Shown: positions 11,194-13,759 of the stretch, piece after piece | How positions within the stretch are numbered: the first letter of the stretch is position 1 | Layout of the letters: each line of letters starts with the position of its first letter | Source of the DNA: Methylophilaceae bacterium | Lineage (GTDB): Bacteria; Pseudomonadota; Gammaproteobacteria; Burkholderiales; Methylophilaceae | Direction: 5' to 3' | DNA length: 64,000 nt | Assembly: GCA_018398995.1 (NCBI GenBank) | Contig: CP073759.1 | Coordinates: 372,001 to 436,000 of the forward strand | Translations under genes and position numbers: made by a program | Notes under the pieces: generated by a model | The model's input: only the letters and a program-made list of their open reading frames with translations | Told to the model about the DNA's origin: nothing | Databases searched by the model: none

Positions 11194-11865
11194 ATGTGGA
11201 ACCGCCAATATCTTATCGCATTTGGGTTGTTATTAATTGCTGCAACTGTCGTTATATGTATAGGTAAATTCGAGTACTATATCTCTCTCCTTGTTGGAGT
11301 CTGAGCAACCATGTTCGGTGTGATTCTAGCACTTGATTTAAATAAACTAAAAGAACTACGCACCGATAAAGAGGAGTTTGACTCTGGGCTTGAGGTTCTA
11401 GACGTTGAGCTTGAACACAATCTTTCTATTTTAGGTAAGCATCGCACTGAAACGACTAGTAACAGTTTTAACTATGGTAGGCTCAACACCAGTCTCATAA
11501 ACTATTTTCTTGATAAACCAACAACAGTCAGACGAGGTGGGAAGGTTTTACGTCAGGCTTTACTGAGTTGTCGCGCTCGAGTCGACTCATACATGTTGAT
11601 CTACTCTCGATTTGAAAAATATGCCTCAGAAAGAAATGGCTTACCAGATACAGCTCTGGGACAACTTAAGGACTTAATTTCCCAAACTGAATTTATTATT
11701 ATTTTATTGCGTACTTTGATAACCAAATACCAGAATAATCCCCGCAGTCTGTTAGACGCCAAAATATATCAGCATTATGGTTCAGCTTTAGAGCTCGAGA
11801 AGAAATACCGAGCGATAGATATAACTTCTGCTTATGAAAAATTAAAGGATGAGGTTAGTCTTTGA
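11194..11865 (+). pseudogene. Membrane-anchored protein gene of unknown family, interrupted by an in-frame TGA
   Basis: An ATG at 11194, preceded by a GAGA-type ribosome site, opens a frame encoding a transmembrane helix (YLIAFGLLLIAATVVICIG) and most of a second one (YYISLLVGV), then a TGA at 11302-11304. The same frame continues without another stop to 11865: ATMFGVILALDLNKL completes the second helix, followed by a charged, helical cytoplasmic domain of about 180 residues. A single TGG-to-TGA change would explain this. Downstream translation could restart at the ATG at 11311, giving a 184-residue protein without a membrane hairpin. Family unknown; read-through, recent mutation or sequencing error are all possible. 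Confidence 0.6.
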
Positions 11866-11975
11866 CAATGCCGATTCCCTCCCTTCAATCAAGCAACCGT
11901 ATCACGTAATAAGTAGGACGACAATAAGCGATAGCGCATTGTGCCGTATGCATCTATTTTAAGTTGCCTTCCTTT

Positions 11976-12250
11976 TCGCCTTTAGGCGAGTTACTTTCTT
12001 TTAACTGCCTGAAAAGAAAGTAACCCAAGAAAACGGCACCCCGTCACCACGACCGTCAGGGTCATTCCCAACCTCGCTAGGCGCTGAAGCGCCAAGTCGG
12101 TTGAAACGCCCTTCGGATTCCCTGCGCTACTCAGTAAACAAGGCGTCTGCGGAACTCGCCCTAACAGACCACACAAAACGTGGTCTGTCGCGGTGCTCGG
12201 ACAGGTCCTCGACGAAATCCCCTTGTTCACCTCCGTTGCTCGGCGTGGCT
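11976..12250. repeat. Structured intergenic repeat, copy 1
   Basis: This is part of the 1.07 kb gene-free stretch 11866-12931. It begins with the small palindrome CGCCTTTAGGCG and a 12-base hairpin TTACTTTCTTTT/AAAAGAAAGTAA (11991-12023), continues with a hairpin GGCGC-TGAA-GCGCC (12080-12093), and ends with a hairpin made by ACAGACCAC/GTGGTCTGT (about 12168-12188). The same modules recur in inverted order and orientation in 12420-12700. Apparent open frames across it look like by-products of the repeat, not genes. Confidence 0.75.
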
Positions 12251-12310
12251 ACAGGGGGCTGAACACCATATGAATTTGTACGATTGCATCACTGAACAAA
12301 TATTAAATCT

Positions 12311-12385
12311 CGTCATTTCTGCGAAGGCAGGAATCCAAATTATGTTTTAAATTCAAAATGGATTCCCATTTGCATGGGAATGACG
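12311..12385. repeat. Nested palindromic repeat
   Basis: Arms CGTCATTTCTGCG...GGAATCC (12311-12336) and GGATTCCC...GGGAATGACG (12360-12385) pair at their ends, and each arm folds on itself (CTGC-GAAG-GCAG and CCCAT-TTGC-ATGGG). Short palindromes of this CGTCATTCC type are common between genes in many proteobacteria. It sits at the centre of the two large inverted copies. Confidence 0.7.
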
Positions 12386-12419
12386 GAAATGTAAACTCCA
12401 TCTACGTTGGGTTGCTTTA

Positions 12420-12700
12420 CCTTCCCTTTATCAAGCTGAGTAGCGCAGACAAAATAAGATGAAGGCGAGGACTGTTTGAGCAACGCGACAGACCATGATT
12501 TGTGTGGTCTGTTAGGGCGAGTTCCGTCTCAACTGACTTGCTGCTTTAGCAGCTAGCGAAGTTGGTGATGCCCTTTACGGGTACAGCCGCTTATTTTGTT
12601 GAGCAACGCAAGGGACCCGAAGGGCTTGATAGCAGGGTGTGTGTTTCTTTGGTTACTTTCTTTGGCACAAGCAAAAGAAAGTCACTCGCCTAGAGGCGAA
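12420..12700. repeat. Structured intergenic repeat, copy 2 (inverted)
   Basis: Inverted counterpart of 11976-12250. It holds the GACAGACCA/TGGTCTGT hairpin (about 12487-12511), the hairpin GCTGC-TTTA-GCAGC (12540-12553), and at its outer end the TTACTTTCTTT/AAAGAAAGTCA hairpin (12653-12684) and CGCCTAGAGGCG. The loops and some stem bases differ from copy 1 but pairing is kept. Confidence 0.75.
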
Positions 12701-12754
12701 AAAGATATAGCTTTAGTGAGATAAGTCGAGTGCATAACGGTACAGCCCCACCCG

Positions 12755-12800
12755 CAGGATGTCCCCAACCTCGCTAAATGCTAAAGCATCAAGTCGGTTG
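12755..12800. repeat. Short third copy of the repeat hairpin module
   Basis: CCCCAACCTCGCTAAATGC, a TAAA loop and GCATCAAGTCGGTTG repeat the module seen at 12067-12105. The stem here is ATGC/GCAT where copy 1 has GGCGC/GCGCC. Only this part of the repeat is present; the remaining bases to the PPK2 gene at 12932 show nothing recognisable. Confidence 0.6.
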
Positions 12801-12931
12801 TGAAAACTGACTAGCTGTCGGACCACCCCCGACTTGGTGAATACCTCAAAGAAGCTTCATACGGTGGATTACATTTCATTAATGCAGCCTATTTGCTAAA
12901 CTAGTTTCAACCATTCAAACAAGGCTAATCC

Positions 12932-13759
12932 GTGCATACCCCTAGCGATATTATTTTACAAAAACATCCACCTCTCTTAGCCAACGCTGATTTTGAATCT
13001 TCCATCATTGGCGATTTAAAGCTTTATAAAAAAGAGTTAAAAAAATGGCAGCAGAAAATTGTTGAGGTGCAGCAGGCTTATTATCATCAAAACCGCCTTG
13101 CGGTGATTGTGTTGCAGGGTTGGGATGCAAGTGGTAAAGGTGGTGCGATTAGGCGTTTGACTGAGAAGTTAGATCCTAGGGGATATACTGTGCACCCGAT
13201 TGGCGCGCCGACTACCGCAGAACTTCAACAACATTATTTGCATCGTTTCCAAATGCGTTTGCCAGCATCGGGCACAATTGCGATTTTTGATCGCTCTTGG
13301 TATGGACGCGTGCTGGTCGAGCGCGTTGAGGGTTTTGCCTCAGCACAAGCATGGCAACGCGCTTATCAAGAGATTAACGAGTTTGAGCGCACATTAATAG
13401 ATGATGGTGTGCGGATAGTTAAACTGTTTTTGCATATTACGCCAGAAGAACAGCTGATGCGCTTTGATGAGCGGTTAAATAATCTATCTAAACAATGGAA
13501 ATTAACCAGTGACGATATCCGCAACCGTGCTAAGTGGGATGATTATGTTGATGCGGTTAATGATATGTTTCGTTACACCTCTACCGAAGCCGCGTCTTGG
13601 CAATTGATTGCTGCTAATCGCAAGTGGTTTACACGTGTTGCGGTGTTAAAGCATGTTTATCATGTATTAGCTGAAGGGGTCAATTTAACGCCACCTCCAT
13701 TAGATAAGCAATTAATTAAAGAAGCTCAACAACAGCTGGGGCTAATTTATAATGATTAG
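12932..13759 (+). CDS. ppk2: Polyphosphate kinase 2 family protein (PPK2)
   Basis: A 275-residue single-domain PPK2. The Walker A segment GWDASGKGG is at residues 63-71, the Walker B/lid motif IFDRSWYGRV at 118-127, and the preceding HRFQMRLPASG also fits the family. PPK2 enzymes transfer phosphate between polyphosphate and nucleoside mono- or diphosphates; the class (NMP or NDP) cannot be fixed by eye. The start is a GTG with AAGG eight bases upstream. It stands alone after the repeat region. Confidence 0.9.
   Translation: MHTPSDIILQKHPPLLANADFESSIIGDLKLYKKELKKWQQKIVEVQQAYYHQNRLAVIVLQGWDASGKGGAIRRLTEKLDPRGYTVHPIGAPTTAELQQHYLHRFQMRLPASGTIAIFDRSWYGRVLVERVEGFASAQAWQRAYQEINEFERTLIDDGVRIVKLFLHITPEEQLMRFDERLNNLSKQWKLTSDDIRNRAKWDDYVDAVNDMFRYTSTEAASWQLIAANRKWFTRVAVLKHVYHVLAEGVNLTPPPLDKQLIKEAQQQLGLIYND

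Follow-up and report, generated by a model that had tools for sequence, protein, structure and literature searches.

A candidate REP-like mobile repeat of Methylophilaceae whose two hairpins are kept by paired changes

Why would a non-coding palindrome keep its fold while the letters of its stems are replaced? The question arises from a locus within a 64,000-nt stretch (G000:C1:372001-436000, referred to as the window in the rest of the text) of a closed Methylophilaceae genome that consists of a single contig of 2,025,576 bases. A first-pass annotation had reported here two inverted copies and a third, partial copy of one hairpin with different paired bases, and had taken them for a folded RNA or DNA function rather than decay. 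Our reading, to which we give a probability of roughly 0.6 on comparative sequence analysis, is that the copies belong to a REP-like DNA repeat of the Methylophilaceae that is mobile and non-autonomous.

The unit and its setting in the window

A covariance model (R2) matched three full copies of one ~57-nt two-hairpin unit in the window, with E-values of 2e-16 to 1e-14, far beyond chance:

12050 to 12106, plus strand: unit copy 1 (R2 match 12045-12108, 75.1 bits, E 1e-15; ends taken from empty and filled sites); hairpin A GACC-GTCAG-GGTC; hairpin B CAACC TC GCT A [GGCGC TGAA GCGCC] A AGT C GGTTG; tail AAA
12527 to 12583, minus strand: unit copy 2, inverted (R2 match 12525-12588, 78.4 bits); upper stem GCTGC/GCAGC, loop TAAA; lower stem CAACT/AGTTG, in which a C-G pair has become T-A
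12749 to 12803, plus strand: unit copy 3 (R2 match 12744-12805, 70.7 bits); upper stem AATGC/GCATC with an outermost A.C, hence 4 of 5 pairs formed, loop TAAA; 2-nt deletion in hairpin A

All of the stem pairs claimed at first pass are present (GGCGC-TGAA-GCGCC, GCTGC-TAAA-GCAGC on the minus strand and AATGC-TAAA-GCATC). The described arrangement held for copy 2, which is inverted; copies 1 and 3 share the direct orientation. The third copy is not partial, as it fills all 64 model positions apart from the 2-nt gap in hairpin A.

The unit is laid out as hairpin A at the 5′ end, a short spacer, hairpin B and a tail ending in nGA. Hairpin A is exemplified by ACCC-GCAAG-GGGYG and is followed by a spacer such as TCCCC or TCACC; hairpin B reads CAACC, TC, GCT, A, a variable 5-bp stem, a TNAA loop, the stem partner, A, AGT, C and GGTTG, thereby combining a conserved mid-stem A/A mismatch and a conserved loop with a freely varying upper stem. 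Both strands fold, about equally.

The three copies are nested in a larger mosaic whose remaining palindromes include terminal hairpins, CGTC-1 REPs and long inverted arms. This non-coding composite spans ~11970-12860, between a 184-aa frame that ends at 11865 and another frame, with its start at 12932, which we take, from reading it by eye, to be a polyphosphate-kinase-2-type gene. Its other parts are as follows:

11976 to 12024, no strand assigned: left terminal hairpins, TCGCC-TTTA-GGCGA and GTTACTTTCTTTT/AAAAGAAAGTAAC (inverted repeats I5 and I6); the same hairpins occur at composites L022-L027
12150 to 12204, plus strand: left arm of a long imperfect inverted repeat (I1), CGGAACTCGCC...ACAG, 91% complementary to 12472-12526
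12311 to 12337, plus strand: CGTC-tagged REP (CGTC-1/dRS3 type) in mid-composite, CGTCATTTCTGCGAAGGCAGGAATCCA, which fits the published CGTC-1 anatomy (PMC3733652)
12359 to 12385, minus strand: second CGTC-1 REP, inverted, CGTCATTCCCATGCAAATGGGAATCCA (PMC3733652)
12472 to 12526, minus strand: the corresponding right arm (I1); unit copy 2 is inserted immediately at its end
12652 to 12699, no strand assigned: right terminal hairpins, GTTACTTTCTTTGGC/GCAAAAGAAAGTCAC and TCGCC-TAGA-GGCGA, in the opposite orientation to those on the left (I5 and I7)
12817 to 12833, no strand assigned: short hairpin at the right edge, GTCGG-ACCACCC-CCGAC, adjoining unit copy 3; also found beside the copies of L025-L027

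The CGTC-1 anatomy consists of a CGTC tag, an 8-bp stem that begins with AT, a 4-nt loop and a CCA tail (PMC3733652). The two REPs of this type, at 12311-12337 and 12359-12385, face each other at the centre of the composite, and other composites in the same genome carry the same pair with different stems (e.g. CGTCATTCCCGCGAAGGCGGGAATCCA). The terminal GTTACTTTCTTTTGC...GCAAAAGAAAGTAAC hairpins (11976-12024 and 12652-12699), together with neighbouring parts of the composite, match G050 and G060 (same order, outside the family); since these matches extend beyond the family, the hairpins and the neighbouring parts seem to be separate, wider repeats. No empty orthologous site was found for the composite as a whole, and its downstream gene was unmatched in the five other genomes of the genus.

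Paired changes in the stems

Copies were collected blind to their stems, by the flanks CAACCTCGCTA N8-24 AAGTCGGTTG with no constraint on the stem; the reversed pattern, run as a control, was empty in every genome. The copies obtained carry stems such as AGCAC/GTGCT, ACCGC/GCGGT, GGCGC/GCGCC, AATGC/GCATT and AGTGC/GCACT, among others. Together with copies from a scan of GTDB contigs with a pattern that constrains no more than the innermost pair and some of the loop, they form a set of 31 distinct copies whose alignment was not fitted to the model; 94.8% of its cells are paired, with 63 two-sided changes against 21.5 ± 3.3 when shuffled, and slid structures leave 22-38% paired. A second alignment, with 96 distinct copies taken from many genomes, was made by fitting to the model and therefore leans towards structure; in it 92.0% of cells are paired, 309 cells are changed on both sides yet paired against 99 ± 7 when shuffled, two-sided changes appear at 15 of the 18 pairs, and pairing falls to 26-34% in every slid control.

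This excess of double changes bears out the earlier claim that the structure is kept while the stems change in pairs. In the upper stem of the 96 copies, the departures from the modal pair, which are counts of sequences and not of independent events, comprise 86 two-sided Watson-Crick changes, 6 G-T pairs and 17 breaks, so that paired changes outnumber breaks by 86 to 17; the equal frequency of the two that would have spoken against the annotation is not what is seen. The lower stem of hairpin B varies too (CAACC/GGTTG, CATTC/GAATG, CAATC/GATTG). The mid-stem A/A mismatch is retained in 72 of the 96 copies across 21 different upper stems, and the loop is TNAA in most. At the level of these alignments, both hairpins are preserved by paired changes, while conservation of the letters themselves is seen in the A/A mismatch, in the TNAA loop, on either side of hairpin B and in the tail.

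Strong covariation would also fit a structured RNA, that is, an intergenic transcript that protects mRNA 3′ ends or acts as a processing signal or terminator and whose fold is selected as RNA. Consistent with this, RNA folds of two tested copies beat shuffled sequences (z of −5.0 and −2.2 on the plus strand and −2.9 on the minus strand), and the copies are intergenic, with 16 in convergent against 7 in divergent contexts, a placement that is likewise reported for REPs. Sporadic mismatches in the 96 copies, however, comprise 19 G-T and 27 A-C, and the two pairs with a habitual wobble favour opposite strands; given this near-balance and these opposite preferences, neither strand stands out as an RNA under selection. 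The roughly equal folding of the two strands, the lack of any Rfam match over the window at the gathering score, the nesting of many copies in other repeats in both orientations and the lack of a T-run after the hairpins argue in the same direction. As the exact insertions described below mark the unit as mobile, any role as RNA would have to come on top of that, and we judge the RNA explanation quite improbable.

Much the same holds for the view that the paired changes are a by-product of mutation, one arm of a near-palindrome being rewritten from its partner by template switching so that stems stay matched without selection, and that the copies are spread by recombination. Template-switch correction is established for palindromic DNA, and a process at the DNA level would agree with how evenly the mismatches divide into G-T and A-C. 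Yet such correction should erase both the A/A mismatch and the internal loop with its asymmetry (TC...A / A...C), and these are kept in the 72 copies and 21 upper stems mentioned above, and it leaves the insertion of an exact-ended unit at new sites unexplained. Part of the paired changes could still come from template-switch correction rather than from selection.

Exact insertion and distribution of the unit

Comparison of filled sites with empty sites (joined flanks) delimited the unit at five independent positions. The inserts measure 56-58 nt, nearly always 57, with no target base duplicated, and at all sites they start with NACC (or AGACC) and finish with nGA:

Between AAGCGGCTG and CGGAACTCGCC: empty in L022; filled in the window (copy 2), L026 and L237; insert of 57 nt
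Between TATCAAGCCCTT and CGGGT: empty in the window; filled in L023
Between CAATCGG and AAACTCGC: empty in L093; filled in L100, L187, L259 and L263, in several sequence versions
Between GGCGGATAAGCG and TAGCG: in L286, within the loop of a GTAG-type REP; intact REPs of the same kind adjoin
In L251: one unit copy within the TAAA loop of another copy

The strongest new result is that the unit has defined ends and, as these sites show by comparison, moves or has moved whole. Exact insertions of fixed length, taken with the keeping of the fold, indicate a mobile REP-like palindromic repeat and not decay. What stood of the initial suggestion of a folded RNA or DNA is thus its DNA side: the fold is kept, and the exact insertions point to mobile folded DNA; an RNA function drew no support from the mismatch counts (19 G-T against 27 A-C).

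The five junctions share no obvious target motif and no conserved target or guide tetranucleotide. A general bias to hairpin loops was tested and found no support, as the junctions equal the controls both in stem (3.56 observed, 3.56 control, p 0.72) and in unpaired value (0.59 against 0.59); only L251 and L286 are clear loop insertions.

The window's own genome (2.03 Mb) holds 10 copies of the unit, mainly in composites like that of the window, and a solitary copy lies at 1169257-1169322. The R2 model detected the unit in about a third of the Methylophilaceae genomes searched (65 of 187, belonging to 10 of 24 genera), at up to 24 copies per genome, and in 0 of 368 other genomes of the class, the large searches having run with stricter filters at which weak matches are lost. 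Plasmid and phage collections gave no match, and an exact-pattern scan of GTDB contigs returned 26 stretches, many of them titled Methylotenera, Methylophilaceae or Betaproteobacteria. Copies are intergenic (25 between tandem genes, besides the 16 convergent and 7 divergent cases), and 10 lie within mechanical frames, of which the majority are probably spurious; many sit within other repeats, facing either way. In the open literature, searches by exact sequence and by name turned up no earlier description of the unit in Methylophilaceae.

In G466 and G467 (L193-L215) the unit is accompanied by a third hairpin, either GCC-AGTATCCATGC-GGC or the inverse of it, and both are enclosed by an outer stem, for instance GATGCTCTG/CAGAGCATC. 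This assembly is cloverleaf-like, ~105 nt long and often adjoins a CTCGGG/CCCGAG motif, to which, and not to the unit, the orientation of the third hairpin seems to be tied.

Candidate movers and known systems

To account for a mobile repeat of this kind, we propose that an enzyme would recognise the folded single strand by the shape of its hairpins, the mid-stem irregularity and the loop; recognition by shape would leave the upper stem free to drift provided that pairing holds. E. coli TnpA-REP requires a mid-stem mismatch and recognises the upper stem half by its shape and not its sequence (PMC8266576). Recognition of folded DNA is favoured because the conserved parts, namely the A/A mismatch, the loop, the spacer and the tail, are those that a protein would read; the case for RNA is weaker, and template switching explains neither the A/A mismatch nor the insertions. 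Insertion would occur by strand transfer without a staggered double cut, most simply along a single-strand HUH (Y1) route, and the Y1 enzyme would either act from outside or have been encoded by a gene that the window's own genome no longer has. This route is known for REP and IS200/IS605 elements, and we consider it the most likely chemistry, albeit unproven.

The annotation had recommended looking for a REP-type transposase elsewhere in the genome. Searched with PF01797, the closed genome yielded no Y1 (RAYT/IS200) transposase, and neither did G002 or G005, so that three genomes of the window's genus hold 10, 12 and 12 copies with zero detected Y1 genes. This weighs against a classical REP moved by a RAYT since lost from the own genome, an explanation that we regard as possible if on the unlikely side. 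In its favour, Y1 genes occur in 34 of 65 unit-bearing against 27 of 122 unit-free genomes (Fisher p 4e-5, uncorrected for relatedness), and 23 nt past the stop of one RAYT gene (L274:3050-3592) lies a unit-like hairpin pair scoring 40 bits. Neither hairpin of the unit, however, has a GTAG tag beside it, the RAYT neighbourhoods inspected in relatives mostly carry GTAG REPs of their own, and only 4 unit matches over 40 RAYT loci reach 40 bits. A REPtron of the unit was rejected among these 40 loci, as only L274 has the unit near the gene and L274 also bears GTAG REPs.

The L274 RAYT is 180 aa long, with GTAG REPs GTAGGAGCGGCTATTAGCCGC and the unit-like hairpin pair just downstream at L274:2964-3027; L287 carries a nearly identical RAYT with a related hairpin ~330-390 nt downstream in the opposite orientation. 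In L276, L277 and L278, 182-aa RAYT genes have GTAGGGTGGGCAAC...GTTGCCCACGC REPs on their flanks, which makes them a canonical-looking REPtron family in Methylophilaceae. The two opposite-facing unit copies that lie 1.2 kb apart in L225 enclose no transposase-like frame.

That the mover is an enzyme unrelated to the Y1/RAYT family which reads a folded two-hairpin DNA by way of its mid-stem A/A mismatch seems unlikely to us; such a mover would agree with genomes of the window's genus that have 10-12 copies, no detected Y1 gene and no IS110 gene except one in the window's own genome. That gene, a 355-aa frame ~390 bp from a composite, together with the ability of IS110 enzymes to target REPs and leave no long duplications, would fit movement by an IS110-type recombinase, which is most improbable, an IS110 gene being found in 0 of 12 other unit-bearing genomes searched. 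This only IS110-type gene found in the own genome is L314 (G000:C1:965862-966296), beside composite L024.

GTAG REPs and BIMEs with their RAYT (TnpA-REP), such as the E. coli REP, are like the unit short intergenic palindromes that occur in many copies and in mosaics of inverted units, and both have a required mid-stem irregularity and an upper stem kept by shape (PMC8266576, PMC2817692). The unit differs in that it lacks the GTAG tag (the bases before hairpin B are CATCAC, CATCCC, CTTCCC, CGTCCC and similar, and the tail is nGAAA or nGACG) and has two dissimilar hairpins per 57 nt, in a host without a detected RAYT and with relatives whose RAYTs have other REPs. CGTC REPs, including Neisseria dRS3, share with the unit short palindromes, variable stems and the lack of a known dedicated transposase; they are defined by an unpaired CGTC (or TGTC/CCTC), an 8-9 bp stem starting with AT and a CCA tail (PMC3733652). 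In the unit, by contrast, CGTC-like letters are confined to a minority of copies (CGTCCC in 10 and TGTCCC in 4 of 96), the stem starts with CA (CAACC, CATTC), the tail is nGA, stem length and loop differ as well, and each unit has a pair of hairpins.

Bacterial MITEs (Correia/NEMIS, ERIC and others) resemble the unit in being non-autonomous, intergenic, nested and able to fold into hairpins, but the unit shows no target duplication at the five sites, its ends, NACC and nGA, do not form inverted repeats, and it is only 57 nt long. With the ends of IS200/IS605 elements it shares two hairpins, one near each end, a mid-stem irregularity and insertion free of duplication; unlike these elements, it carries no gene, and its five junctions lack the conserved target or guide tetranucleotide.

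By definition the unit is neither a GTAG nor a CGTC REP; judged by its sequence, it is a broad-sense REP with a two-hairpin unit. It is a short intergenic hairpin-forming palindrome with 10 copies in its own genome and up to 24 in relatives, its paired irregular stem is kept by covariation, and its exact insertion at five independent sites is that of a mobile element. Its copy number is well below that of usual REPs, which exceeds 100 per genome. Most work on REPs has been built on the GTAG-RAYT pair, and we know of no mover of CGTC REPs. An untagged family with exact insertion boundaries, family-wide covariation and hosts without the usual transposase at detectable level turns the movement of a REP in the absence of a RAYT into a testable question.
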